From: Aurantiochytrium sp. KH105
Lineage: Eukaryota > Sar > Bigyra > Thraustochytrida > Thraustochytriidae
Reading direction: 5' to 3'
DNA: 64,000 nucleotides
Assembly (NCBI GenBank): GCA_003116975.1
Contig: BGKB01000069.1
Location: 62,001-126,000 of the forward strand
The notes under the pieces are model-generated. The model was not told the origin of the DNA and searched no databases. It worked only from the letters and a program-made list of their open reading frames with translations. Made by a program: the position numbers and the translations under genes. Of this stretch, positions 6,801 to 63,731 are shown in pieces; position 1 is the first letter of the stretch, and every line of letters begins with the position of its first letter.

Positions 6801-7271
6801 ATGGGCATGGGGCCTGTGCAGATGTACGAGGTGACGCCAACGCCAGCTCTTTCTGCGGATACACATGCAAAACTTCGTTTTCCGGACAAGAAGCGCGGTG
6901 TTATCGAAATGGCGAACAACCCGCAAGTACGACAACTGCGCCTGTCTGCCAACATGCACGAGGAACAAACGCTGGCAAAGGCGCGACGCTGTGTTGTTTG
7001 TGGCGAAGCTGCGCGCAAGCATTGCGAATTTTGCAATGTTGTTTTGCATAAGCAAATCAAGTATTCCATAAAGCAGCGCATCTCGTGTTGGACGCAGTGG
7101 CACTCGAGCTATTCGATCAAGCGTGGCGAGCTCGAAAAGAAGCCGCGTTCTTTGCGCAATGATGTCTCGGAAGCTCGTGTGCGTTTGCATCCTGCTGACA
7201 AGCACGCTGGACCGTCGTCGCTCGTTGCGCCATCGCCGCCGCCGCCGTTTTCGTCCTCTTCCTCGTCCTAG
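3849..7271 (+). CDS. piggyBac transposase-like (PGBD-type) protein, possibly domesticated
   Basis: A long intact ORF: 1140 residues from the first in-frame ATG (3849). The N-terminus has a zinc-knuckle-like CPACGQEGHADASDERC. An early-middle block, AENAFRALEGVC...ILSLDRFAELQYYLSAFD, resembles the entry region of piggyBac transposases. Near residues 880-990 TVANSAVLWHANQAWRDE recalls the late conserved helix of the catalytic domain. The C-terminal Cys-rich motif CVVCGEAARKHCEFCNVVLH, followed by CWTQWH, matches the cross-brace zinc finger that closes piggyBac proteins. I cannot identify a convincing catalytic Asp triad, and at 1140 residues it is roughly twice the usual transposase length. No flanking TTAA-bounded terminal inverted repeats were recognised. 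The intact frame with a degraded core suggests a host-adopted derivative. An alternative is an unrelated zinc-finger protein. Confidence 0.5.
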   Translation: MESCPACGQEGHADASDERCEKYSDQAGRATKRRRLEASAPEPGPEESVAARENGDDAQNGANDNPKRCVSAGIVWEMMPEAPKLRVILPSEAEAIEREANQHVTSVMQKLDVIWPEATLGLDSSVSVLDAFFYVIGNARTQIFEWTRKRMISAQAAKPPEEWELLSLMAMMFWLHLSGTSAENAFRALEGVCVVSRRSGVDAILSLDRFAELQYYLSAFDHEHPMSNSTDPYEALELSLSQFMMRRLDFGKHCVALSKGMPSTLGLCSPRGQSSDVTNDENITMSCYDAVFPIHLFSVHSLGRARPEDLLIRALRQMKNSRLLETLSDVRVSFEAEGSGTESLLRCAIMGCGVVAKANADTASFPSFLIPACQSGDSCVATARLENFKVKSLSHVSFEARAVAIRSPMQKHGGSDVECYIALEQQQQQTADLSEDVAGLSTTAKRGSQLKAFNELLVADPERPERGSAVLFAEDYHIPEWTSGPHVLSIKDVGNADKTEVPARSQRWSAYSDEYEWSSQLHDVETSVRELPAGGEPDLRNALETGALAADEVVTTLALEKIVRQRLEPITKVGYRGLHFNLMQAFILTEDTAGFCTHALPLQLQNLVRSQKESALEPSEEVIADHFVDQWIRRPKSRAPREALELVQDLPFVEAAFLPGLLHLEGQPAIGTAPSAICVVHGPGHLARLRTNRILCPVEIFMCTLDAAEMAAEAAAAKNGAYVECTAGSKRWFELIPAPFRPRLFHAAAVLGTSCVLFCAASRGTVTYAVLVRISLDLRTQWMARQEEMAERFAKWAWMSVVGQEDAAARAADVPGVFKGSARVAILSKLRVWQALQRRCKEIGPVAPLDSLRSFAECAYASSRRGKTSFDRFVSQLRAQVPEDVSWESTVVTSKLLATVANSAVLWHANQAWRDEKLEGVYKFLYGDMGVACADFVEQLSLQLLSRAASLREDRGLDAGQGASNNAHGGTTSGTLLNSSYGASMGMGPVQMYEVTPTPALSADTHAKLRFPDKKRGVIEMANNPQVRQLRLSANMHEEQTLAKARRCVVCGEAARKHCEFCNVVLHKQIKYSIKQRISCWTQWHSSYSIKRGELEKKPRSLRNDVSEARVRLHPADKHAGPSSLVAPSPPPPFSSSSSS

Positions 7272-7836
7272 GCCTCGTCCGGAGAAGGTCTATACTTTTT
7301 TTAAAACTGATTGATTGACCGACTGATGAACTCGATACTTTTTTTCTTGATGCTAGTAGCCTTTTACGGATCGGGAACGCACATTATTCTTACCCTTGTG
7401 GTGTGTGAGGACCAAGGCAGTGAGCGCCTTTTGTTTCGTTCAACTTTGTTTCGAGGAGCTTTTTTTTTTGCGATGGAGAAAAGTGATCCCCGTCGGGATC
7501 CTAGCTTCTGCTTTCGTTGTTGGCCAATCTCAATGCACCGGACCCCACCCCTCGCCAATGTTAGGTCACTTCGCGTGCAAGATTCAGTCCCAGGTCTCAG
7601 GACGCAGCGAAAGGAAATCGTCGCAACGAGCCAATCTCAAAGCACCCAGCGACGCAACGTTCTGCGCGAGGCGCCGGCAGCGGCGAGCGCGACGATCCTT
7701 CCGTGTGCCGCAGAGGCCGTCGGCAACGCCGCATTGGCTGCACGCTGTGTGGTGCAGCAGACCTGCCTGCAAGGCAAGAAGAGTTGGCCGTGGAGGCAGC
7801 TTGTGCGATATCTACGAGGTTGCTGGGCAAGACACG
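7272..7836. other. Intergenic / 5' region of methyltransferase
   Basis: The methyltransferase frame remains open upstream from 7396 (a GTG), encoding an Arg/Ser-rich stretch with no clear homology. It could be 5' UTR or an organelle-targeting extension read from another start. T-rich tracts occur at 7290-7360 and 7460. Confidence 0.4.
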
Positions 7837-45418: not shown

Positions 45419-48400
45419 TCAATCCTCTGCGACGGCGACATTTGTCATGTATCTCTCTCTGCCAGCGCCAGCACCAGATCCAGCCGCACCACCAGGCCTT
45501 GTTGCAGCGGCGGCGTCAGGATCCTCGTCAGGGTCTTGATTGAAGAACTTGTAGAGCTTGACAGCGCCCGCGCGTCCGACGAGTGGCATGAGATCCTCTT
45601 GAGACATTAAGCTGAGCTCGCGTAAGTTCCGCACGTTGCTCAGGATGGCTCCGACATTATGCACTGTAATTCCTGGAAGCCTGCGCAGGACTTCATGCGC
45701 GGCAACATTGCCCTCTTGCTGTTGTTGCTGTTGCTGACCTTGAGCTTTCAGCGCATCACGAGCAGGGTCGTTCACAGTCGAGGTCGCTGTCCGGGGAAGT
45801 GATCCAAACGAAGAATTAGAAGAAGAGGCCGTAAAGGCATCGAGCACGCTGGCAGGTGCAGCAGGTGGAAGAGCATTGTCGAGGTTATCGGGCATGCCAA
45901 TCGCAGCGGCGAGAGCAGCTTCGGGATTATCGTAGTTGGTCTTCATGAGCTTGAAGAGATCCACCGTAGCGTGCGGGCTAGGCGACCAAAGCAGACGCAA
46001 TGCTGGAAAATGCATGGTCAGCAGGACCATTTTTGACAAAATGCTCGAATGCGAAATGTCCGAGGATATGTCGGTCACGGCCTGCAGCGAAAAGGGCTTC
46101 CCCTCGTCAAATTCGATCAAGAGGTTCGGGCGCTGATAGTATTTGCACATGGCCTCTGCCTGTGTAAAGAGCCGGCCCGAGTTGAAAGATCCGTGCAAAT
46201 CAGGAATGCTTTTGCGCTCAACACAAATCTCGGGCGCCAATATATAGTCTCCAACCTCCAAGGTTGCGGGTTCCACATGGACGCCGTTCTTGTGCAAAAG
46301 TGAGGGCAGCGCACTTCGAAATTCGCGCATGTCAACGACGATGCGCGGCACCACCGCAGCCTTGGCGTGGCGAGGACGACTCATGGCGCTCTCAAATATA
46401 GGTTCACCAGTACTGAGATTATAACCCACAATGTTTCGACTTTTTGCGGTGAGGTCATCTTGGAGCGCTGTCGCATTTTTGCTCTCTCCCATCCGACCTT
46501 GCGATGCAGATGCGAGAACAAGCCCTGCCTTTTCGTCAATGAGCTTTCGAAAGGTATCCTGTTCCCGTTTGAGGTCCGAAAGGTACCGCTGCTCCTCCAC
46601 CGAGTCCTGATACTGCAAGAAGAACATTTGGATTGGTTCGGGCGCAAGTTGTGCGTTTTGCGCGGCTGCGCGCGCTGCCTCATACACCTCGACGGTTCGC
46701 ACAGCCTCCACGTCGGGTTCAAACATGATGACGAAGCGAGGTCGCATTTCCTCGAGAATACTAAGCAACTCGCTTGCACCGTCGCCCCCTTCCACGGGGA
46801 AAACGACAACCTCGGCTCGCGGCCAGCCGGAAGGCGCCTCGTGATCTTGATCTTGGTCAAGATCGACAACTTCGTGCACTGCCTCCTCGCCCATGCTCAC
46901 CTCCTGAACATTGGTTTTCTTGACCAGAGCGAGAAGACGGCGCAAATGCTCGGCAAGAAAGAGTCTCGATTCCACGGGGGCTTTCGCAGCGGCCTCCACT
47001 GCACTTCTGTAGCGGCGGTCAACACCTGAAAATGCATTATCCCCGCGAGTGGGTCGTGGGCCCAAGTAAAGTGCGCGAAGAAGGTCGTGCAAGCCACGCG
47101 TGTCCTCCGATGTGAGACGGAGCGAACCCCTCGCGGCGGATCCTCCGGCTAAATGAGCCAGGCCGTTGGCCCCGCACCACCGGCGAAATCGCAGCCCGAG
47201 ATAGGTTTCCAGGCGGCGGCGATTCACGGCGGCAAGAGCATTCTCTTTGAGTCGAGAACGAATATCTCGTGCAGTAAGCTCATCATGGCAAAATACGATG
47301 GCCTCGGCGCCGCCCGCGGCACGCTGCAAGCTGCTGGATGGTCGATGGCGAAGCAACGTCCGCACCTCACGAATCACACGACGCAAAAGACCGAATTTCG
47401 GATTCTCCTCCACGTCAATTTTCAGTTTGCATTGCTGTTGACCTGTGCCATCGAGGACGATGGTGGAGGGCAAGGTTGTGGGGTCCATTACTGCGAGGCT
47501 ATCTGCGGATCGCTTGGTTTTAAGCTTTGGCGTTCGAAAGACTCGAGTTCGCGCATAGCGAAACATACGGTCTGCAGAATCTGTCAACAGCCAAAGTGAG
47601 GGCGCTTGATGGCCCGTGACCTCGTCGCGAATGCCGTCGAGGACACGCAAAAAGGTGACCGCATCAAGACGGAGAAGATCCGGAAGCAGACGGCGAAGAA
47701 CGCCAACGTCGTGAACGAGTTGTTTCGTCTTGCGACCCACCTTGTGCCATAGCGGGTCGAGCTGGCGGCGCAAGGTCACCTCAAAGGATCGAAAAAGCCC
47801 ATTTTCGACCGTGAGCCCGGACACATCAATGTTTTGCGTCTTGCGCAGCTCGGTGAGACACATCTCCAAGAGCGTCACGAGCTCGCGCTGAATTCCGGCC
47901 ATTAGAGCCGTGAGCGGCTGACCATACTCTGTCACTACGGGGCGGGCTTTGTCGAGAGTGGCGCGTACGGAAAGATGGAAGCGCGGCCAGAGATGAAGTT
48001 TGCCCACGCCAAGAGTGCCCATGACTTGCGCGAGGAAGCCAAATTTTGCTGCCAGGGCCTCGGGCGCGTCGCAAAAGGCCTTGACAAAGCCTGAAAATTG
48101 CGACGAGGTACGGAGAATGTTGAGAATAAAGCCAGAGTTTGAAGTGTCCGAGACACGATGCGCTCCATCGACCACGACGCCGGTGACGCGATCGAGGTCA
48201 ATCACCGCCGAGAGCAGGTCGACAACGAGGATGCGCGAAGTGACGATAAAGCATCCTCCCTCGAGATACAATGCGCGGCGAGCGGCGCTGGTAAGAGAGT
48301 TTGTGACAACGACGGGAGGCGTGCAGCGTGCCTCGGCGCCGCCGCGCTCCACAACGGCGCGCTGCAGCGCTGCTGCCTTTTCCGAGGCGTTGACAATGTA

Positions 48401-48697
48401 CACGAGAGGCACGCGGGACTTGCCGGATGCGCGGGCATGATCGACCTTTTGACAGTACAGTTGCACGAGTTTGGTGATGAGCACGTGGTGTCCGAGTCCG
48501 CGTGCGCTCACCACGAGCGAGTCCTCCTCGAGCGCGCCTTCGAGCATCTCCCTGTGGAAGCCTAGCATGCTCGCGGTGAGACTCCCACTCCCTCCGCCTC
48601 CGGCCTCTCGTGCGGTAGCGCCGCCTGCAGCCGGCGCCTGCGCCATTGCCTTCGAGGCCTCTGCGCCCGAGCCGCCCGCCTCCGCGGTCTCCGTCAT
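45419..48697 (-). CDS. ERCC4: XPF/ERCC4 structure-specific DNA repair endonuclease
   Basis: 1092 residues from the first ATG (48697; the frame is open slightly upstream without an ATG). The N-terminal part is the degenerate SF2 helicase-like module: LVVSARGLGHHVLITKLVQL, PVVVTNSLTSAARRAL, and VVVDGAHR where active helicases have DEAH. The nuclease is intact: IVVDMREFRSALPSLL, LEVGDYILAPE and ICVERKSIPDLHGSF give the GD...ERKxxxD catalytic pattern, with E827, K829 and D833. A C-terminal tandem helix-hairpin-helix follows a polyglutamine linker (VLRRLPGITVHNVGAILSNV, LMPLVGRAGAVKLYKFF). With an ERCC1 partner it cuts 5' of bulky lesions in nucleotide-excision repair and crosslink repair. It is longer than the ~916-residue human protein because of Ala/Gly-rich ends and linkers. 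Confidence 0.96.
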   Translation of the reverse strand: MTETAEAGGSGAEASKAMAQAPAAGGATAREAGGGGSGSLTASMLGFHREMLEGALEEDSLVVSARGLGHHVLITKLVQLYCQKVDHARASGKSRVPLVYIVNASEKAAALQRAVVERGGAEARCTPPVVVTNSLTSAARRALYLEGGCFIVTSRILVVDLLSAVIDLDRVTGVVVDGAHRVSDTSNSGFILNILRTSSQFSGFVKAFCDAPEALAAKFGFLAQVMGTLGVGKLHLWPRFHLSVRATLDKARPVVTEYGQPLTALMAGIQRELVTLLEMCLTELRKTQNIDVSGLTVENGLFRSFEVTLRRQLDPLWHKVGRKTKQLVHDVGVLRRLLPDLLRLDAVTFLRVLDGIRDEVTGHQAPSLWLLTDSADRMFRYARTRVFRTPKLKTKRSADSLAVMDPTTLPSTIVLDGTGQQQCKLKIDVEENPKFGLLRRVIREVRTLLRHRPSSSLQRAAGGAEAIVFCHDELTARDIRSRLKENALAAVNRRRLETYLGLRFRRWCGANGLAHLAGGSAARGSLRLTSEDTRGLHDLLRALYLGPRPTRGDNAFSGVDRRYRSAVEAAAKAPVESRLFLAEHLRRLLALVKKTNVQEVSMGEEAVHEVVDLDQDQDHEAPSGWPRAEVVVFPVEGGDGASELLSILEEMRPRFVIMFEPDVEAVRTVEVYEAARAAAQNAQLAPEPIQMFFLQYQDSVEEQRYLSDLKREQDTFRKLIDEKAGLVLASASQGRMGESKNATALQDDLTAKSRNIVGYNLSTGEPIFESAMSRPRHAKAAVVPRIVVDMREFRSALPSLLHKNGVHVEPATLEVGDYILAPEICVERKSIPDLHGSFNSGRLFTQAEAMCKYYQRPNLLIEFDEGKPFSLQAVTDISSDISHSSILSKMVLLTMHFPALRLLWSPSPHATVDLFKLMKTNYDNPEAALAAAIGMPDNLDNALPPAAPASVLDAFTASSSNSSFGSLPRTATSTVNDPARDALKAQGQQQQQQQEGNVAAHEVLRRLPGITVHNVGAILSNVRNLRELSLMSQEDLMPLVGRAGAVKLYKFFNQDPDEDPDAAAATRPGGAAGSGAGAGRERYMTNVAVAED

Positions 48698-50419
48698 CTT
48701 GGCGGCTGACGCGAGTTTGGCCCAGCCAAAAGGTTCGGGTATTGGTCGATGGACTCGCCAAGTGAAGAACAATGCGATGCAACAATGGCAGGCTGGGGAT
48801 GCGGTGCGCTGGCTGCCTTTGGGCAGAGCAGGACCAGATGTACAAACATCAGGCAGGCAAACACCCGGTGGGGCGAGGGCGCCCTGCGAGCATAAATGCG
48901 TTGATATGCTCTATTTGTGGAGGTGAGCACAGGCTGCGGACCCTTGGTCTTTGCGTGGGAAATGGCCGAATGTAAGTGCGAACGACAGCATTGACCGGCC
49001 ACAACGTTGAACACGCTTGTAAGCTTGGCCGAGCAATGGCCTCAGTGTTACTCCCTGTAAAAGCAGCGTAATAGTCAGTCGGTTAAGGACGTGGCGGCCA
49101 AAAGAGAGGTCGTCTTTTTGGCTTCCGGAGACCCTTTCGTTGTTGTTATTTTTGTTGATGTTGATGATGATCTGGCGAGCATGGTGCCTCGATAGTTTTT
49201 TCACTTTACAACATACGCGCAGTCGCTTGACTTTCAAGTACTACTTACAGTTAGAATTTTGTATTTCGTATGTGGTTTTTGACGAGCGTTTCTGAATAAT
49301 GAAGAAGAGTAGTACGCACACCCACACTTTTTGAGACAAATCTCACCGCAGACAAAGTTATACATTTCGTTGCGCCTCTCTCGGTATTCCGAGCAGGCAC
49401 AAAGAGACACAACCTTCGGGCCTTCCAAAAACCGAAGGACCTTCGTTAACCTGAATCTGCTCATTCCGCTTGTGGTTCTCTTTCAGGCACTACTATTTTT
49501 AATCTGCCCGCCTTGGCCATCGCTGGATACGAGGCATCATCCTGATCTCGCGAATGTGATTGTACGATCGCTCCGCTGCGGACGCCAAGCCAAGAAGCCA
49601 CTTGGTCTTTCCATGGACTATAGGTGCGAAGGCAATAGCCGTCGTGTCGTGGCGCAGCTCCGTGCTTTCAACAACGGAGGAGCACAGGGTCCGCCAAGCA
49701 TGTCACCTACCACCCCGCTTCCGTACGTGCCCCACTGCATCTCCGCCCCAGCGCTAGGGCCTACGCCTTCCGCTGCTCCTGCTACGCACATCCCGTTCGA
49801 GCCCCCGCGTGTCATTCCTTTGCGACGGTAGCGTCGGTTGCGCCTTGACTGTGAGGCAGCTTCCGCGAGGGCCGCCTCAACTTGAAGACTGCGACGGCCG
49901 GACCGCCCTCGCCCCGTCTCCTCGCAGCGCGTGTAATAGAAGCGAAGAGTTGCGAAGAGACGAGCGACGCAGGCGCGCAGAAGTCGCGCGCAGGCGGCTG
50001 CGACCGGCAGGACCCGTCGCGGCGCACGCGATGAAGAAGCGGGGGGAGACGCGCCTCTCGCGTTGACGGTACGGTTGCAAGGCATCGCATGCTGCGCGAG
50101 TGTGCTTGCGCGAGTGTGCTGCGCGAGTGTAACTAAGGGACGCAAGGCGACAAGGAGGATGCACGACGAAATAGCAGCAGGCAGAGCGCAAACGAAGCGA
50201 GACAGGCGACCGAAGCGAACACGAGCGTCCAGGAGCACGTACGCGGAGGAGGCAGCAGCGAGCGGAGCGGGGGCGTAGCGCGCGGGGGGGAAAGGGGGGA
50301 AGGAGGAGCGACGCGGCGGCACGAGCGATCGCAGCGCGGTGCATAAAGGGCGAGCGATTCCTGAGAGAGGGGGAGAAAGGACAAGCGTGTGCACGCACAC
50401 GGGGGATCAAGACGAGAAG
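48698..50419. other. Divergent intergenic region, XPF / LRR-kinase-TIR gene
   Basis: 1.7 kb between divergent starts. The 48,900-49,500 part is AT-richer; 49,850-50,390 is GC-rich with purine-rich runs just before the LRR gene ATG. Repeats of GCGAGTGTGCTTGC/GCGAGTGTGCTGC occur at about 50095-50130. ORFs here are low complexity or antisense to nothing; no gene supported. Confidence 0.5.
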
Positions 50420-53400
50420 ATGAATACTGTCAAGAAGCTCACTGCCCGCATGAAGCGGGCGCCTTGGGCCCAGGGTGATGATCATGCGCCTTTTCTCGCG
50501 CATGATGCCACCGATCAAGATGACGCTTCGCTCGGTTACTTTTCGGACAGTGACGAAGACGTGAACGAGGTCGTCCATGAGCATCTTGACAATCATGGGG
50601 ACGAAGAGGAAGAGCCGTATGACGGAAACATGGCTGATGACGCGTACAGAGAGAGAGATAAAGGAGAAAGCGATGAAGATGACGACGATGAGGACGAAAT
50701 TGATCACGATGATCATGGCGGCGGCGGCGGCGGCGGCGATAGCGGTGAAGGCGGGCATGAAGAAGAGGACAACGACGACGAAGACCGCGCCGGTAGCGGG
50801 AGCGAGGATGAGTCGCCCGAGGAAGAAGGCCTCGAGAAAGGTCTCAGCGGGCAACGGGCGGTCAGAAAGACGATCGATCTGATGCGGAACGGCGTCAAAA
50901 CGATTGAGTACGTTGAAAACCTTCTCGCAAGGAAGAATGACCCTCATGCGATCCGGCCAACTGACGATTTTCTTCAAAATAATCTACAGTCTCACCGGTC
51001 GTAAAATCGGCGACGAAGGAACCATGGCGCTGGGAGAAGAGCTTGGTACGAACACCTCACTCGTTTCGTTGAAGTAAGTTAGCATTTGTGCGGGATTTGG
51101 TTGCATTTAAGCGCGCATATCTTTGCGCAAGGAAAGAACCGAACTGGTCCAATTGAGTGCAATACTGCACAACGCCAGGAGGACACTGACTTTGTGTGCT
51201 TGTCGCCATAACCCAGTCTCGAAAGGAATGGGATCCACGGAGAGGGCGGCGCTGCTCTGGCCGAAGCCCTGCACAAGAACTGCTCCCTTACCACGCTTTC
51301 GTAAGTCAAAGCTTGTCGCGGGGTCGATCAGGGTACAGTACCAGCAAGAGAGACTCTGGTAAAGGCCGCTGGATATAGCATCGTAACGACGCCGCTATAT
51401 AACAAGCAAGAGACTAACAACCACAGACTCTCAAAAATTGCAGTCTCAAGAGCAACAGCATTGGTATCGATGGCGCGGTTACTTTTGCTCACGCATTGAG
51501 CGTGAACATCACGCTCTGCTCACTGAAGTAAGTTGAGCCTCGATCTGTTGTTTTGCCACAAGAAAGGTCTTATGCAGTTATCGCCGAGATCCTCTGGTCG
51601 ATTGCTCAGCCCCGGTGCCATTATTTCGGTGTTAAGGTGACACAAAGCAAAGAGAGGTCTCTTGGAAAAGAGTTGATCGAAGACTTACACGGCTCGCTCA
51701 TTGTCACGATGTCGACAGTCTTGGAAGCGACCCGAACTACATCCGCAATAACATTGGAGACGATGGGGTTTTGGCGATCGTTGATGCTCTGGGCGAGAAT
51801 ACTGTACTCACATTCTTGGAGTAAGTTGGCGGCTTGAGATAGGTGCAGAGGGCTTATGACGACACTCCTGCGCCAGACCCTTGAACTACATGACTGACAT
51901 CTCAATTGTGTCACTGACAACACACAGTCTCAGCTTCAACGGCATAAGCGAGGTTGGCGGCAAAGCAATCGCAGGCTTGCTCTCCACGAACACATCGCTG
52001 CAAATTCTCAGGTAAGTTCTGATTGTATCTTGACAATGGTCAACGAGGCAACATGCATGTATTTCTGCGAGAAGGAAAGCAAGTGGGCGTTCGTGGCGGA
52101 GACGACGGCGACGGCGACATGAGGGTGGACACTGACAGCCATTTCGCGCTCATCAATAAATGCAATCAATGCAATCAATGCCATGCCACACCACAATCAT
52201 CATGCACAGTCTCGAGTCGAACAAGATCGGCTCAGATGGCGCCATTGGGCTCGGGCAAGGCTTGGGCAAGAACAGCTCGCTTACGTCTTTGAAGTAAGTT
52301 GGTTCGGTTGTGTTTTGCTGCGTTTGATTGGAGGCAAGACTTTGGATTGGACAACGCAAGAAGGCGGCATGCGTGTATTTCTGCGTGAAGGAAGGCAGGT
52401 GGGCGTTCGTGGCGGAGAGCAGAAAGGCGGGACTGCGCCAAGACGACGGCGACGGCGACATGAGGGTGGACACTGACAGCCATTTCGCGCTCATCAATCA
52501 ATGCAACCAATGCAATGAATGCCATGCCACACCACAATCATCGTGCACAGTCTTCTGTCGAACAACATCGGCCCAGCTGGCGCCGTTGGGCTCGGGGAAG
52601 GCTTGGGCAAGAACAGGTCGCTTACGTCTTTGAAGTAAGTTGGTTCGGTTGTGTTTTGCTGCGTTTGATTGGAGGCAAGACTTTGGATTGGACAACGCAA
52701 GAAGGCGGCATGCGTGGATTTCTGCGTGAAGGAAGGCACGTGGCCGTTCGTGGCGGAGAGCAGAAAGGCGGAACTGCGCGAAGATGACGGCGACGGCGAC
52801 ATGAGGGTGGACACTGACAGCCATTTCCCGCTCATCAATGAATGCAGTCAATGCAATGAATGCCATGCCACACCACAATCATCGTGCACAGTCTTGGATA
52901 CAACGGCATCGGCGACTCGGGCGCCCTTGGGCTCGGGCAAGGCTTGGGCAAGAACAGGTCGCTTACGTCTTTGAAGTAAGTTGGTTCGGTTGTTTTTTGC
53001 TGCGTTTGACTGGAGGCAAGACTTTGGATTGGACAACGCAAGAAGGCGGCATGCGTGGATTTCTGCGTGAAGGAAGGCAGGTAGGCGTTCGTGGCGGAGA
53101 GCAGAAAGGCGGGACGGCGCCAAGACGACGACGACAGCGGCATGAGGGTGGACGCTGACAGCCATTTCGCGCTCATCATTACTGCAATGAATGCCATGCC
53201 ACACCACAATCATCGTGCACAGTCTTGGATACAACGGCATCGGCGACTCGGGCGCCCTTGGGCTCGGGCAAGGCTTGGGCAAGAACAGGTCGCTTACGTC
53301 TTTGAAGTAAGTTGGTTCGGTTGTTTTTTGCTGCGTTTGACTGGAGGCAAGACCTTGGATTGGACAACGCAAGAAGGCGGCATGCGTGGATTTCTGCGTG

Positions 53401-56400
53401 AAGGAAGGCAGGTGGGCGTTCGTGGCGGAAAGCAGAAAGGCGGGACGGCGCCAAGACGACGGCGACGGCGACGGCGACATGAGAGTGGACACTGACAGCC
53501 ATTTCGCACTCATCAATAGATGCAATGAATGCAATGAATGCCATGCCACACCACAATCATCATGCACAGTCTTGAGTCGAACATCATCGGCCCAGATGGT
53601 GCCGTTGGGCTCGGGGAAGGCTTGGGCAAGAACAGCTCGCTTTCAGAACTGAAGTAAGTTAGTTAGGTTGTGTTTTGCTGCGTTTGACTGGATGCAAGAC
53701 TTTGAATTAGACAACGCAAGAAGGCGGCATGCGTGGATTTCTGCGTGAAAGAAGGCAGGTGGGCGTTCGTGGCGGAGAGCAGAAACGCGGGACGGCGCCA
53801 AGACGACGACGACAGCGGCATGAGGGTGGACACTGACAGCCATTTCACGCTCATCGTTGAATGCAATAAATGCAATCAATACCATGCCACACCACAATCA
53901 TCATGCGCAGTCTTTACAACAACGGCATCGGCGACTCGGGCGCCGTTGGGCTCGGGGAAGGCTTGGGCAAGAACAGGTCGCTTACGTCTCTGAAGTAAGT
54001 TGGTTCGGTTGTTTTTTGCTGCGTTTGACTGGAGGCAAGACTTTGGATTGGACAACGCAAGAAGGCGGCATGCGTGGATTTCTGCGTGAAGGAAGGCAGC
54101 TGGGCGTTCGTGGCGGAGAGCAGAAAGGCGGGACGGCGCCAAGACGACGACGACAGCGGCATGAGGGTGGACACTGACAGCCATTTCACGCTCATCGTTG
54201 AATGCAATAAATGCAATCAATGCCATGCCACACCACAATCATCATGCACAGTCTTGAGCGGAACAACATAGGCCCAGAAGGCGCCGTTGGGCTCGGGCAA
54301 GGCTTGGGCAAGAACAGCTCGCTTACATCTCTGAAGTAAGTTGGTCAGGTTGTATTTTGCTGCGTTTGATTGGCTGCAAGACCTTGGATTGGACAACGCA
54401 AGAAGGCGGCATGCGTGGATTTCTGCGTGAAGGATGGCAGCTGGGCGTTCGTGGCGGAGAGCAGAAAGGCGGGACTGCGCCAAGACGACGGCGACGGCGA
54501 CATGAGGGTGGACACTGACAGCCATTTCGCGCTCATCATTGAATGCAATGAATGCAATGAATGCCATGCCACACCACAATCATCATGCACAGTCTTGCTG
54601 TCAACGGCGTCGGCCCAGATGGCGCCGTTAGGCTCGGGCAGGGCTTGGGCAAGAACAAGTTGCTTACAGAACTGAAGTAAGTTGGTTCGGTTGTTTTTTG
54701 CTGCGCTTGATTGGAGGCAAGACCATGGATTGGTCAACGCAAGAAGGCGGCATTCGTCGATTTCTGCGCGTAGGAAGGCAGGTGGGCGGTCGTGGCGGAG
54801 AGCAGAAAGGCGGGATGGCGCCAAGACGACGGCGACGGCGACATGAGGGTGGACACTGACAGCCATTTCTCGCTCATTTTATGAATGCAATGAATGCAAT
54901 GAATGCCATGCCACACCACAATCATTATGCACAGTCTTGAGTGGAACAACATCGGGCCAGATGGCGCCGTTGGGCTCGGGCAAGGCTTGGGCAAGAACAG
55001 CTCGCTTACGTCTTTGAAGTAAGTTGGTTCGGCTGTGTTTTGCTGCGTTTGATTGGAGGCAAGACTTTGGATTTGAGAACACGAGAAGGCGGCATGCGCG
55101 GATTTCTGCGTGAAGGAAGGCAGGTGGGCGTTCGTGGCGGGTTGCAGAAAGACGGGACTGCGCCAAGACGACGGCGACGGCGACATGAGGGTGGGCACTG
55201 ACAGCCATTTCGCGCTCATTATTGAATGCAATGAATGCCATGCCACACCACAAAAATTATGCACAGTCTCGGATACAACGGCATCGGCGACTCGGGCGCC
55301 GTTGGGCTCGGGCAAGGCTTGGGCAAGAACAGNNNNNNNNNNNNNNNNNNNNNNNNNNNNNNNNNNNNNNNNNNNNNNNNNNNNNNNNNNNNNNNNNNNN
55401 NNNNNNNNNNNNNNNNNNNNNNNNNNNNNNNNCTGCGTGAAGGAAGGCAGGTGGGCGTTCGTGGTGGAGAGTAGAATGGCGGGACTGCGCCAAGATGACG
55501 GCGACGGCGACATGAGGGTGGACACTGACAGCCATTTCTCGCTCATTTTATGAATGCAATGGATGCTATGCCACACCACAATCATCATGCACAGTCTTGA
55601 GTCGAACAAGATCGGCCCAGATGGTCAGATGGTACTTACAGAGATTCTCTTGACGGAGAATGGTGGCTTGCGTGAAATATCGTAAGTTCGTTTGTTCACT
55701 ACCCCCGCCTTGGAGGAAAATTTGAATTTCTGCATACTAATTCTCCCGTTCTCCGGAACCAGTGGTCTACCGGATCTACCATCATTGACATGGAGCGAGT
55801 TGCTTCAAGCTTCGAAAGGCGATTCTCGGATAAAGCTGATAAGGGAGTATCTTCTTGACGCGGGGGAGATGAAATGGACGTCGGCCGCGCATGAGTTGGC
55901 TGGGGTATCGGCGCACATATTTGCGGTCTTTCTCATCGTCCTCACTCAGTATACCCCGGAGACGCAAGTAGCTCTCGGAAAGCCCAATTTCTGGCTTTTG
56001 AAGAACGTAGGTGCGAACGAAAAGGAGAAAGAGGGACAAGACGAAGACTCCAATGTTCCATTGATCCATGCATTGTTTGACTGTCACGCGACAACAACGC
56101 AATACTCTCTTCCGCGACGATTTTGCGATGAAGTTCTTATGAAGGTCCTGTCTCTCAAAGATGGTCTACTGTTGATGAAGGCTGAAGACGGCGGTGGGCG
56201 GACGGTTCGTTCACTTGCGCTCACTAATAAAAACACGAAAGCGTGGGCCAAAACTTATGGCACATATCTCGATCGTTACAGTGTCATGGAAGGCCCTCCA
56301 GTCCACGAATCCAAAACATGTGCGGTGCACTACGCGACGGATATCCAAACAAACGAAGCAGTGGCGCTCAAGATCATGCGTAAAAAAGATCAATACAATC

Positions 56401-58742
56401 GCGAGATTGTTGCACGCACAGTTGCAGACGATGGAGATGCGAATCTTGAAGGCTGTTTGCCACTTCTTCACCACGTGGACAATGAGCTATGCCTGGTGAT
56501 GAAAAGAGGCTCGCGTTCGCTTTTCGAAGCTATCAACACGGAGCGCTTTGCTGGCCGCGATCTGCGAAAGATCCGCACGATCGCGTACAAGATTGCTTCT
56601 GCAGTCAAAAGTCTGCACGACAGTGGTCGAATTCATGGCGACATCAAGCCACGCAATATGGTGCGTGTCAGCGATCCGAAACTGCAAACATTCTCCGATG
56701 AAAAAAAAGGAAGTCGTCTCACGGTGCCAGACGAATGGAGAAAAAATGTGACGGGGGAGCTCTTGGACGTCACCATCAACGAAGACTGGCAACTTATTGA
56801 TTTGGACGCATCGGCATCGATTTCGACGCCGAAGAAAGAAAGTGCTGTTACAGAAAAGGTGAGCACAGGCTACGCAGCACCCGAACTCGCCAAATGGCAT
56901 TTCTTGCCCAAAGCAAAAAGGGACAAGAGGCCCCCGGCTCACCCAGCGATTGATGTTTGGGGCTTCGGCGTAGTGCTTTTTCAGATGCTCTCGGGCACGA
57001 AACTTTTCATGGTTGATGAGTCTGACGACAACCTAGTGACAGATCACGACAAGGTTGAGCTCATGAATTGGCTTGCGCTGGACGACGAACGTCTTCGTCG
57101 CATCAAGAGTCGTCATGAGAAAGATGAGGAGAAGGAGGAAGAGAACGACGGTGAGATGACTGGGGGTGAGGATAGCGTGAAGACAGATGGTCTTGATGCG
57201 AAAGATTATGAGATCGAGGCCGCGCGCGACTTGGTGCGACTCTGCCTTCGCGGCGATGCGAAGGAGCGCATTACAATAGAGCAAATCCTTGACGAGCATC
57301 CGTTTTTCGAGACGCTTCGCAACACAAGCCATGAGAACGAAGAGGGAAAGAAGACCACGAAGGGCGCACGCGCAAGCAGCTCCTCTCTTCGTTTCTCTCG
57401 CCGTGTGATGAGCCTTCACAAGCGCGTGATCCCCAAACGATTCAGTCTTTTCGGTCGCACGACAGAGTTCCGAAAATACAGAAATTCAAGGTCGAGTGCC
57501 TTCTACAAAGAACGTGCTCACAACGAGCTCATCGAGCTCCCGACGTACCATTTTTTTCTGTCACACATGCAGTCGCAGGCCGCAGGAATCGTCAAGGACC
57601 TTGCAGCTGGCCTCGAGCGCCACCGAATGTCATCTTGGGTTGATATGAATGCGACTGAGATCAACCTCGAAAGCATGCATCGTGGGGTGCTTTCGTCGCA
57701 GTGCTTCATCATGGTGCTCACCAAGGACGTACTTTCCCGGCCCTACTGTCTCGCCGAACTACATTTTGCCGTTGAGTACTTCGGCCCAACAGAAGATGGG
57801 CTGGCGAAGCACATTTTTTTCGTTGTCGAAGAAGATACCCGATTTCATCCATGGAATGATCATGATGTGCCACGGCATTGTTCTTCCGAGGATTCAACTG
57901 CGGACGACGACCAGTCGGACCGAGAAGAAGCAGGCAACGATAAAGCTTCCAGTCATAACCCAGGCTTAAGTAAGCTGGGCGCATGCCAGTTCTGGTCACA
58001 TCGACGTGGGTTGCAGCATTCTGGCGGCGACAAGGCAGATGCAGTTACACATGCATCCAAACATGAGACTTTGTGCGATTCATTGGACAAGCTAGAGTTA
58101 CAGAACTGGGAAGGAGATCCTGTGAATTCAAAACAGATACTGAACAATGCGAAGACGGCTCTATTGGAATGCAAACGTATCCCATATCGTCGACGTCTCT
58201 TTGAGGAAGATGCAATGCTGCGTGTTCTGGCAGATAGAGCAGGTTTCCAAGCCATCCCATGTCCCATTGAAAAGATTGCCTCAGATGAGAAGGAAGATCT
58301 TCGACTAAAGGTGGTGGGCAAACAAAGCTCCAAGGCAGTCAAAAACTTTGCACTCAAGCTCGGTGAGCAAAGGATTTCTTGGAGAAGTCAAAAACCTCAC
58401 GTCGTTGTGGTCGTTCTTGAGAAAGATTGCTGGGACGACGTCCAAGCGTTCTGGAAGAGCCAACTCAAAGGAGAAGATGCTGAGGAAATGAGAGCTCCTC
58501 TGCTTGCAGTCGCGGTCTGCGGTACTGATGAGGCGTGGGATTTCAACGACATAGATAAGTTTGAAATCCCAGCACTCCGTTCAAGACTCTTCGACCGCCT
58601 CGAGGTGCTCATGTGGCGGGATGCCCCTGGAGCTAAAAACCGGGATCCCGAAAAGTACATTGTGGAACACGAGGAACCTGCGCTCATTAGGGAGCTCTAC
58701 TCGCGCGCGAAAAGGCTGCAGCGGTCGTCTCTCACCACTTGA
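50420..58742 (+). CDS. LRR-kinase-TIR receptor-like protein, 18 exons, LRRs encoded by tandemly amplified exon-intron units
   Basis: Exons: 50420-50907, 50990-51073, 51217-51300, 51444-51527, 51719-51820, 51928-52011, 52210-52293, 52551-52634, 52892-52975, 53223-53306, 53570-53653, 53911-53994, 54252-54335, 54593-54676, 54935-55018, 55267 into an N gap, 55595-55681, 55763-58742. All introns are phase 2. With one unit across the gap the total is 4833 nt, 1610 residues, in frame. Residues 1-162 are acidic. Next are 16 ribonuclease-inhibitor-type LRRs of 28 residues (34 in unit 4, 29 in the last), consensus LxxNxIGxxGAxxLGxGLGKN. A protein kinase follows (about 787-1133) with Lys821 in VALKIM, HGDIKPRN (Asp911) and DLD instead of DFG (964-966). 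A TIR domain follows (about 1210-1320; FFLSHMQSQA, FIMVLTKDVLSRPYCLAEL) with Glu1283 at the NADase position. A 290-residue tail has no recognised domain. No signal peptide or membrane helix is seen, so it is probably cytoplasmic. Confidence 0.85.
52210..55681 (+). repeat. Tandem array of about 341-bp LRR exon + intron units
   Basis: Ten or more units, each an 84-bp exon (starting T-CTN after cacag, ending before gtaagtt) plus an intron of about 257 bp. Exon starts fall at 52210, 52551, 52892, 53223, 53570, 53911, 54252, 54593, 54935 and 55267, then 55595, giving spacings of 341, 341, 331, 347, 341, 341, 341, 342, 332 and 328. Spacing variation comes partly from an (AATGCAATG)-type microsatellite just before the acceptor. 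Introns share nearly all bases; exons differ mostly in their first half. ORFs on the minus strand here repeat because of the array and are not genes. Confidence 0.95.
55333..55432. other. Assembly gap of 100 N inside the LRR array
   Basis: Starts within LRR exon 16 and ends inside the following intron. In the neighbouring unit the equivalent stretch is 105 bp, so 100 N could be real length, but 100 is also a conventional placeholder. Extra units may be collapsed here. Confidence 0.98.
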
Positions 58743-62231: not shown

Positions 62232-63604
62232 AATGCATCCATTTCTCAATCCATCGTCGCGTCACGTGGCCGTCGAAAATTCCCCTTTTCGCATTTTGAA
62301 AAGACCGCGTTGAGCAAGATCTTGGCGACGACGGAGACGGATCAGCTCTTTTGCCTGACGTCAACGAAGCGGCGAGAAGCGTCCTACATTCCAAGGCTGC
62401 TTCTGCGACTCAAAGCACCCTTGTTGGCGATCTTGCAGTCTCCGCCAGAGCATGCCTCGATCGCGCTCTTGCAGCCGAGGCGGAAGCGGGCCAGCTTCAC
62501 CGTGCGCGCTCGCGCGTGCTTCCAGGAAAAGCGGGTTGACGACCAAGGACCGGCAGTCAGTCAGTCAGCCAGTCAGTCAGTCACGCGGCGCCATTTTCTT
62601 CCCTTCCCCGCCCTTTTCTCTACAGTCCTGCCCCGCAGAGGCTACCTCTCCCCGCCCACCCGCTGCGCTCCGCGCGTGGCGCTCGCTTGATCGGCAGCAG
62701 CCTCGGGCTGCAGCTGCTCGCGTCGGTCGCGTCGCGCAGCAAGGCCCGTGCTGCATTCCCTGCAAGTGTGCGCCTGCTCTCTTATCTAAGCGCAGCGCGT
62801 TCTTCCACCAACACGCTTTTTCTCTCCTGCGCGGGTGCCCAGCGCGACCCGAATTCCCGCGTCCGTCCCCGCCTCTTCGCCGCCCACGCCATCGACGGCG
62901 AGCGGCCTCCGGAGCAGCGCGGATGGCCCGGCGCAGCAGCGAAGGTCTGGCGAGGCGCGGCGCGGCGAGGCGCTGCGAGGCGCCGCGAGGTGCTGCGACC
63001 TCGAGCTGTTGCCGGGCGGTCGTGACCGACCGAGGACATCCGCGCGTGGCTTCTTCCTTCCAGCTAGCTCAGCTAGAGCTGGCTGGTCGGCGGCTCGTTG
63101 CGATCGTAGCTCTCGCGTGCGCGCCGCTGCCGGCAAATTGCGGCCGTGTCGGTGCGAGGCCTCGCGAGGCTCTCGCGCAGCAGCAGCACAGCAACAATGC
63201 GGCGCGCGCAGCAGAGCCTGCAGCTGAGCCGCGCGGCACGTAGCGTCGTCATCGTCCGTCGACGTGCATGCCGCAGGGGCTGCCGCAGGCAGTCAGTCAT
63301 TCGCGTGGAAAGAAAGAACGACGTCTGGCAGGCATGGCGGAATGAGGTTTTGACTTTTCGCGCGAGCGAGGAAGGGGGGAGGGAGGACATGCATGTGCGC
63401 GAGAAGAGGGAGCGCCATGGATGAGACGGCGCGCGGCGGAGAAGGGCCGCCGGGCGCCAGCTGCAAGTGCAGAGCCATATATTGTGAAGACCTCCGACAA
63501 AAGCCCTCCTTCTGCCAATGAGCGCAGTGCTTCGGGGACATCACGGGCGCCTCCATCGTGGTGCGATGGCCCGCACCTCTTCCTCTCTCCTCCCTGGCGA
63601 GAAG

Positions 63605-63656
63605 ACAAGCAAGCAAGCTATCGAGCAAGCAAGCAAGCAAGCAAGCTAGCTAGCTA
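63605..63656. repeat. (AAGC)n and (TAGC)n microsatellite
   Basis: Interrupted AAGC units merging into three TAGC units; no ORF supported. Confidence 0.9.
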
Positions 63657-63731
63657 GATAGCAAGTAACTGCAAGCAGCAGCAGCAGCAGCCACCAAGCG
63701 ACAGCGGCCAGCTGCAGGCGGCTCCGAGTCA

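Follow-up and report, generated by a model that had tools for sequence, protein, structure and literature searches.

Why should the exons of a tandemly repeated receptor gene differ more from one another than the introns that separate them? This question is raised by a window of 64,000 nucleotides from the thraustochytrid Aurantiochytrium sp. KH105 (contig C69:62001-126000 of a 76.03-Mb, 367-contig assembly), which holds a predicted receptor gene whose leucine-rich repeat (LRR) array consists of similar exon-plus-intron units, here called cassettes. Based on a comparison of the cassettes throughout the genome, we propose that this gene belongs to a group of LRR receptors that have probably diversified as cassettes were duplicated and exchanged between loci, with selection favouring diversity, likely in the service of non-self recognition.

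The initial annotation had compared two units by eye and regarded the introns as more conserved than the exons. Its counts were reproduced: the exons at 52551-52634 and 52892-52975 differ at 14 positions, all between positions 5 and 47, and at seven codons (3, 4, 6, 9, 10, 13 and 17), each of which (7/7) changes the amino acid, while the introns at 52294-52550 and 52635-52891 differ at 10/257 positions. However, these introns precede the exons and do not follow them as described; the introns that do follow differ by 0.065. The pair is fairly typical of the array, with a mean p of 0.174 (0 to 0.262) over the 36 pairs of nine complete cassette exons and of 0.077 for the nine complete cassette introns of the window. 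In contrast, the reported lack of silent change is true of that pair alone, as the 314 codon differences over the 36 pairs comprise 68 silent and 246 replacement differences. Nor are the introns unusually conserved. With silent divergence taken as the four-fold third positions differing at codons with unchanged amino acid, exons and introns diverge about equally, both in the window (0.076 for nine exons, 0.071 for eight introns) and in a set of 41 exons from 12 loci (0.077, compared to 0.061 for 29 introns), from which nine fifth-constant exons had been removed. Because the two rates agree, the cassette introns are, on this sequence comparison, a near-neutral yardstick. Equal silent and intron rates together with replacements not in excess had been named as the outcome that would speak against the original idea; the rates were indeed found to be about equal, but about five codons show far more replacements than these rates predict.

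In pairs of the 41 exons, the amino acid is replaced in a fraction of 0.83 at codon 3, 0.87 at codon 4, 0.76 at codon 6, 0.54 at codon 9 and 0.61 at codon 10, and in none (0) at codons 2, 5, 8 and 11; 12 amino acids occur at codon 3 and fourteen at codon 4. The replacements do cluster in the LxxNxIGxxGA part of the repeat, as had been noticed, although the description of the LGKN half as fixed went too far, since replacements occur at codon 17 in 36%, at codon 23 in 57% and at codon 27 in 38% of the pairs. As a null distribution we used 255 overlapping intron trinucleotides in 29 units, which are non-consensus in 0.095 of units on average and 0.538 at maximum. Codons 3, 4 and 6, non-consensus in 0.72, 0.69 and 0.66 of the same units, lie above this maximum, and codons 9 and 10 (0.52 and 0.48) lie under it. 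A large array on contig C9 (40 exons and 36 introns, excluding the intact exon L029:3355 with its GTGAGT donor) gave 0.689 for the same five codons versus 0.190 elsewhere, at a silent divergence of 0.094 and an intron divergence of 0.142. The constant LRR exons that lie in front of the cassettes, compared over 8-9 young loci, show no comparable excess, because their amino-acid difference (0.14-0.22 per codon) is near their four-fold silent (0.10-0.21) and intron (0.12-0.18) values. Two pairs of older homeologous arrays serve as a further control, since their intron p is near that of the cassettes: in L025/L027 (8 exon pairs, intron p 0.059) the five codons differ in 3/40 cases and the other codons in 3/176, and in L026/L028 (17 exon pairs, intron p 0.077) in 15/85 and 29/374. 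Taken together, the aligned units show a per-codon replacement excess over the silent and intron yardstick, of which selection would be the cause.

The gene itself is modelled at 50420-58742 (+), with 18 exons, 1610 residues and every intron in phase 2. It begins with an acidic N-terminus, followed by five constant LRR exons, 10 cassettes, an 87-bp terminal LRR exon and a 2980-bp last exon, giving 16 LRR exons in all. Its parts are the following.

50420..50907 (+): exon 1, acidic N-terminus (MNTVKKLTARMKR...); 17 genome matches, 10 of them spanning most of the exon; similar N-terminus in Hondaea P0002
50990..51073 (+): constant LRR exon C1, 84 bp, from the gene model; found in 12 loci among those retrieved
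51217..51300 (+): constant LRR exon C2, 84 bp, from the gene model
51444..51527 (+): constant LRR exon C3, 84 bp, from the gene model
51719..51820 (+): constant LRR exon C4, 102 bp, from the gene model
51928..52011 (+): constant LRR exon C5, 84 bp, from the gene model
52210..52293 (+): cassette exon 1, compared with its counterpart on contig C133
52294..52550 (+): cassette intron, GTAAGT...CACAG, 257 bp, from the gene model
52551..52634 (+): cassette exon 2, first unit of the initial annotation, from the unit alignment
52635..52891 (+): cassette intron, 257 bp, from the gene model
52892..52975 (+): cassette exon 3, second unit of the initial annotation, identical to cassette exon 4, from the unit alignment
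53223..53306 (+): cassette exon 4, from the unit alignment
53570..53653 (+): cassette exon 5, from the unit alignment
53911..53994 (+): cassette exon 6, from the unit alignment
54252..54335 (+): cassette exon 7, from the unit alignment
54593..54676 (+): cassette exon 8, from the unit alignment
54935..55018 (+): cassette exon 9, from the unit alignment
55267..55350 (+): cassette exon 10, length assumed, its last 18 bases being within the 100-N gap 55333-55432 that falls in this last cassette
55595..55681 (+): terminal LRR exon, 87 bp, from the gene model
55763..58742 (+): last exon, protein kinase and TIR, ending with the stop codon, from the gene model and Pfam

Each cassette exon has 84 bp, both borders in phase 2, and encodes a 28-residue LRR of the ribonuclease-inhibitor-like type; the cassettes would be spliced as modelled. 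Exon and intron were amplified as one unit, as had been suggested, and Tandem Repeats Finder reports 9.5 copies of 341 bp for the array (score 4847). The LRR part matches Pfam LRR_6 (9.7e-70), and the last exon matches Pkinase (6.7e-23) and TIR_2 (1.1e-8). Among the matches in the PDB are NLRP proteins and ribonuclease inhibitors (1dfj, E 1.5e-26); a PDB sequence search with the TIR stretch reached E values of 0.15 to 0.44 at best, and we make no claim on TIR catalysis. The closest relatives of the last exon come from the thraustochytrid Hondaea fermentalgiana (9/16 matches so named), among them P0001 with 65% identity.

Cassettes were found in 12 'young' loci with 41 intact exons and in two older arrays, one of which has at least 41; the cassette query gave at least 87 genome matches, many of them partial. 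The introns of the young loci are as different within loci (0.061, 52 pairs) as between them (0.062, 354 pairs). In contrast, the constant introns of the same locus pairs differ by 0.175 on average, and the cassette introns are closer in 10/10 young locus pairs. Their variation is star-like, with a mean distance of 0.033 to the consensus and derived states of which 112 are private and 47 shared, and an intron tree needs 18 locus-label changes compared to a shuffled mean of 19.3 (as low in 48/200 shuffles). These comparisons show a common cassette pool over the loci, for which exchange would be the mechanism. Frameshifted or stop-containing cassettes were found neither among the 105 exon-like matches in cassette loci nor in the C9 stretches. 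Of the 105, 64 are cassettes of the catalogue and 30 belong to the chains as other LRR exons; the remaining 11 are constant exons, terminal exons, or exons truncated at a contig end or N run. On C9, the cassettes of one minus-strand gene are spread over L019 (12) and L029 (29), some of them being separated by a 1312-N run, and a two-unit block of L029 (6431-7102) recurs at 7103-7774 with 95% identity and identical exons, as a recent duplication. With its at least 41 intact cassette exons this array is perhaps longer still, as 4.3 kb lies before the kinase-TIR exon.

The pool serves receptors with two different signalling chassis, as the exons behind the cassettes show. Behind the cassettes of the window, and behind those on contigs C57, C29, C225, C42, C300 and C116, there are kinase-TIR matches; on C9 such matches lie beyond the 4.3-kb stretch past the cassettes. 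The exon behind the cassettes of L011 (C303), in turn, has Roc (3.1e-16), COR-A (2.4e-11) and TIR_2 (1.2e-14) matches, and the loci on C101 (L009), C90 (L017) and C342 (L020) are similar in DNA by 91-94% over 4-5 kb that include the L011-type tail, with COR-A matches there. Cassettes do not seem to be sorted by chassis, with the nearest intron from another locus sharing the chassis in 6/25 cases (p 0.885 by permutation of the labels; without L010, where the contig stops within the array). At L014 (C215), the kinase-TIR exon matches only at two adjoining ends (residues 1-155 and 831-988), as if kinase and TIR had been lost. Genome-wide there are 124 matches to COR-A (ROCO), 116 of them above the cut-off; several of the 124 are on the contig of the window, some 20-65 kb downstream of it.

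Homeologous loci, which are either alleles or two subgenomes, were seen to carry different arrays when their sequences were compared. The counterpart of the window locus lies on C133 (L024), where the neighbouring protein is 98% identical. Within window positions 48066-52252, DNA identity is 97.5-100% over 48201-48600 but drops on entry to the constant LRR exons, the 200-base blocks between 50801 and 52000 being 76-88% identical. The first cassette of C133, of which 43 bp remain before the contig end, has codons 3, 4, 9 and 13 replaced and codon 2 silently changed relative to the window, and in the intron block before it 200 bases could be aligned at 97.5% identity, with 34 gap columns. L009 and L011, with flanks 95.4 and 94.5% identical, hold four and five cassettes without a single common codon 3-4 hexamer (zero); their constant exons also differ. 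The flanks of L016 and of L010+L013 (two contigs, taken as one locus) are 92.8 and 91.8% identical, and only the codon 3-4 hexamer of the last cassette is common, besides the consensus hexamer in another L016 unit. The arrays of L014 and L023 (flanks 87.0 and 84.1%) are too incomplete for comparison.

Variation also seems to be reassorted within the units, as judged from eleven association tests and six Mantel tests whose p values are uncorrected for their number. Codons 3, 4 and 6 are mutually associated (p at most 0.0002), as is codon 9 with 10 (p 0.0002). No association was found between codons 4 and 9 (p 0.37) or 6 and 10 (p 0.76), and a weak one between 6 and 9 (p 0.015). The variable block does not correlate with the 3' part of its own intron (Mantel -0.07), and the values for the rest of the exon (0.10, p 0.086) and the preceding intron (0.17, p 0.067, n 20) are low; the rest of the exon, in turn, tracks its own intron (0.59, p 0.0005). 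Linkage disequilibrium at 21 biallelic sites in 29 units decays with distance, r2 being 0.50 below 5 bp, 0.10 at 15-40 bp and 0.14 at 80-150 bp (permutation p 0.0025), partly because codon blocks change together. The young set has 28 distinct codon 3-4 hexamers, consensus included, and 8 non-consensus ones recur in 51 older exons, whereas reassortment of codons 3 and 4 would lead one to expect 3.16 (p 0.0003). Thus, the original suggestion of diversifying selection, templated exchange of exon blocks, or both is supported independently on each count: selection because of the per-codon replacement excess, and exchange because of the single cassette pool over loci and the variable hexamers common to older arrays.

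A further suggestion, that the introns exist as homologous flanks for unit exchange, is unsupported. The LRR exons of the older arrays L025-L028, which the cassette query matched in the exon part only (places on contigs C21, C5 and C68), are also split by phase-2 introns, and inter-LRR introns are therefore not peculiar to shuffling cassettes. Homologous introns may help exchange, but a purpose cannot be inferred from them. As for the intron-poor genome that this suggestion invoked, the long single-exon open reading frames (ORFs) of the window agree with it, and the observation is limited to the window.

According to the model that we favour, the window gene would be a member of an LRR receptor family whose recognition domain is an array of one-exon 28-residue LRRs. 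Owing to the phase-2 borders on both sides, units could be added, lost or replaced without a break of frame. The arrays would change through duplication and loss of exon-plus-intron units, and units would be exchanged between loci by gene conversion or ectopic recombination, LRR-kinase-TIR and LRR-Roc-COR-TIR genes included, while selection would favour new residues at about five positions per repeat. Read against the LRR consensus LxxLxLxxNxI, codons 3 and 4 presumably correspond to the exposed residues that precede the conserved Asn, and codon 6 to the exposed residue that follows it; the three would lie on the exposed concave beta-strand or just past it, with codons 9-10 where the helix starts. 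An AlphaFold2 model of P0097, a Hondaea relative of L025/L027 and not of the cassettes, is weak (mean pLDDT 63.5) and served for a rough strand and helix assignment; over its six repeats it predicts strand for codons 27 to 3 in 4 to 6, for codon 4 in 2 and for codon 6 in 3, and helix for codons 9 to 20 in 6/6. The likeliest role would be the recognition of varied non-self ligands, e.g. viruses, which are described for thraustochytrids in the accessible part of PMC4512727, or bacteria, leading to a kinase/TIR or GTPase/TIR output. A signalling role is suggested by the presence of kinase, GTPase and TIR parts, and the receptors may have an immune role. Lamprey variable lymphocyte receptors (VLR) build their repertoire from interchangeable LRR units via conversion-like exchange. 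That interlocus exchange in this strain is frequent enough, and perhaps mitotic, for its clones to differ in their arrays, and so to form a VLR-like clonal repertoire without lymphocytes, is an extension we consider rather doubtful; unlike in the lamprey, the differences here are among loci of one assembly, and introns lie between the units.

Several observations weigh against the proposed combination of selection and exchange. Pooled over the 36 window pairs, the NG86 statistic gives a pS of 0.187 and a pN of 0.178, that is, no replacement excess; since S is inflated by codons that carry two or three changes, we did not make it our main statistic. The per-codon excess in turn consists of pairwise counts that are recombination-unaware, and the pairs of units are not independent. 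The variable block is weakly correlated with the 5' part of its own intron (Mantel 0.12, p 0.037). The window introns cluster by locus (3 changes compared to 7.2 when shuffled, with three introns in a supported set), as do those of L011 (2 compared to 3.8), and the approximately unbiased (AU) test does not reject a tree in which the eight window introns form a single clade (p 0.070); local duplication is therefore part of the history. Moreover, the annotated model of Hondaea P0002, which closely resembles the window gene at the N-terminus and agrees with it in the first exon junction, is without an LRR array, and more than one GLGxGLGKN motif was found in 0/136 retrieved proteins, so that the array has no protein-level support from other organisms. 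Lastly, arrays abut contig ends or contain N gaps, and their lengths are thus uncertain. Such gaps and ends would also be expected if short reads of near-identical units had been misjoined into chimaeric cassettes, producing a false interlocus mixing, and the assembly is likely 454/Illumina based, to go by the accessible part of PMC5924542. However, the per-codon excess and the linkage within about 40 bp fit inside one read, and silent and intron rates agree over 12 loci, which makes an assembly artefact very unlikely.

Of the biological alternatives, an older origin of the variants deserves the most attention, although we hold it to be unlikely. Here the variable codons would be ancient, gene conversion would rewrite the introns and the conserved exon parts so that the introns look younger than the variable codons, and selection would merely keep the diversity, with little accelerated substitution required. 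The eight hexamers common to older arrays, the star-like introns, the reassortment of blocks 3-4-6 and 9-10, and the discrete three-base alternatives at codons 9 and 10, which have few intermediates and are seen in older arrays too, are all in favour of it. Nevertheless, codons 2, 5 and 8, which are interspersed with the variable codons or adjoin them, stay at the silent level, so the rewriting must spare single codons and selection would therefore be required anyway. A purely neutral turnover, with drift and unequal crossing-over homogenising the units and the variable codons merely unconstrained, agrees with the tandem arrangement, the identical pair (52892 and 53223) and the duplicated block of L029. 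Yet codons 3, 4 and 6 are replaced far above the intron and silent rates, which relaxed constraint cannot surpass unless those codons predate their flanks, and we disfavour this possibility as highly improbable. Mutagenesis directed at the 5' part of the exon, by a process similar to a diversity-generating retroelement or a deaminase, might explain why the changes of the first pair are confined to the first 47 bases and why many codons have multi-base changes. Codons 3, 4 and 6, however, vary at all three positions and with several bases, unlike the adenine-specific variation of such retroelements, and the interleaved codons 2, 5 and 8 are near baseline; this mechanism is extremely unlikely.

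Compared to known systems, the cassettes are best read, in our comparison of gene models, as a variant of the LRR-ROCO exon shuffling of brown algae, described by Teng 2024 (PMC11378527), which cites Zambounis 2012. In the accessible text of that study, multicellular algae have 72-bp exons encoding 23-residue LRRs, sites 14, 16, 18 and 19 are reported as selected and concave, and a somatic, adaptive role is proposed but not demonstrated. Aligned on the conserved Asn, these sites correspond to codons 4, 6, 8 and 9 here. Common to both, as far as described there, are one LRR per phase-2 exon in tandem arrays (here from gene models), variable residues near the conserved Asn, exon shuffling and a proposed immune role; diversifying selection is reported for the algae, whereas here the per-codon excess comes from counting and pooled NG86 is without excess. 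Unlike the algal genes, ours have 84-bp exons and 28-residue LRRs in a unicellular stramenopile; the window gene has a kinase and a TIR and no ROC-COR tandem, although its sibling L011 has Roc and COR-A; and the pool is common to kinase-TIR and Roc-COR-TIR genes, with TIR in both. The Tetrahymena arrays, according to the accessible part of PMC6564038, likewise have fixed-length tandem LRR exons, phase-2 introns, recent expansions, shuffling and some protein kinase fusions, but consist of 90-bp exons in thousands of genes with a retrotransposon association, compared to 84 bp and few genes here. The ribonuclease-inhibitor-like 28-residue LRRs are similar to those of NLR and NOD2/RNH1-type LRR proteins, yet, unlike in NLR receptors, neither NACHT nor NB-ARC was among the Pfam matches of the window gene (E 0.01) or of the L011 tail (E 0.1). 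Our literature search, mostly without subscription papers, found none on LRR, TIR or ROCO receptors of thraustochytrids among the papers listed. Thus, while shuffled one-LRR exons in brown-algal ROCO genes and tandem LRR exons in Tetrahymena are already known from the accessible parts of PMC11378527 and PMC6564038, the unicellular thraustochytrid case, the 28-residue type, one pool with two chassis and the intron/silent yardstick are new as far as the literature searched. A unicellular counterpart would uncouple the shuffled-LRR idea from multicellularity and make it testable, and a cassette pool common to two signalling chassis would clearly illustrate how recognition and output evolve as modules of their own. 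In addition, variable codons beside introns that match silent sites would provide a built-in near-neutral control, which is rare among receptor families. The pattern of cassette variation, together with the use in two receptor types, gives the impression of a recognition repertoire that is evolving.

When the window, which has a GC content of 57.9%, was searched for Rfam families at the gathering threshold and for tRNAs, no matches were obtained. Upstream of the receptor gene, a single-exon ORF with an ERCC4 nuclease domain lies at 45422-48772 (-), for which we claim no link to the array. A CAAG-type tandem repeat at 63598-63700 of the window has matches on many contigs.

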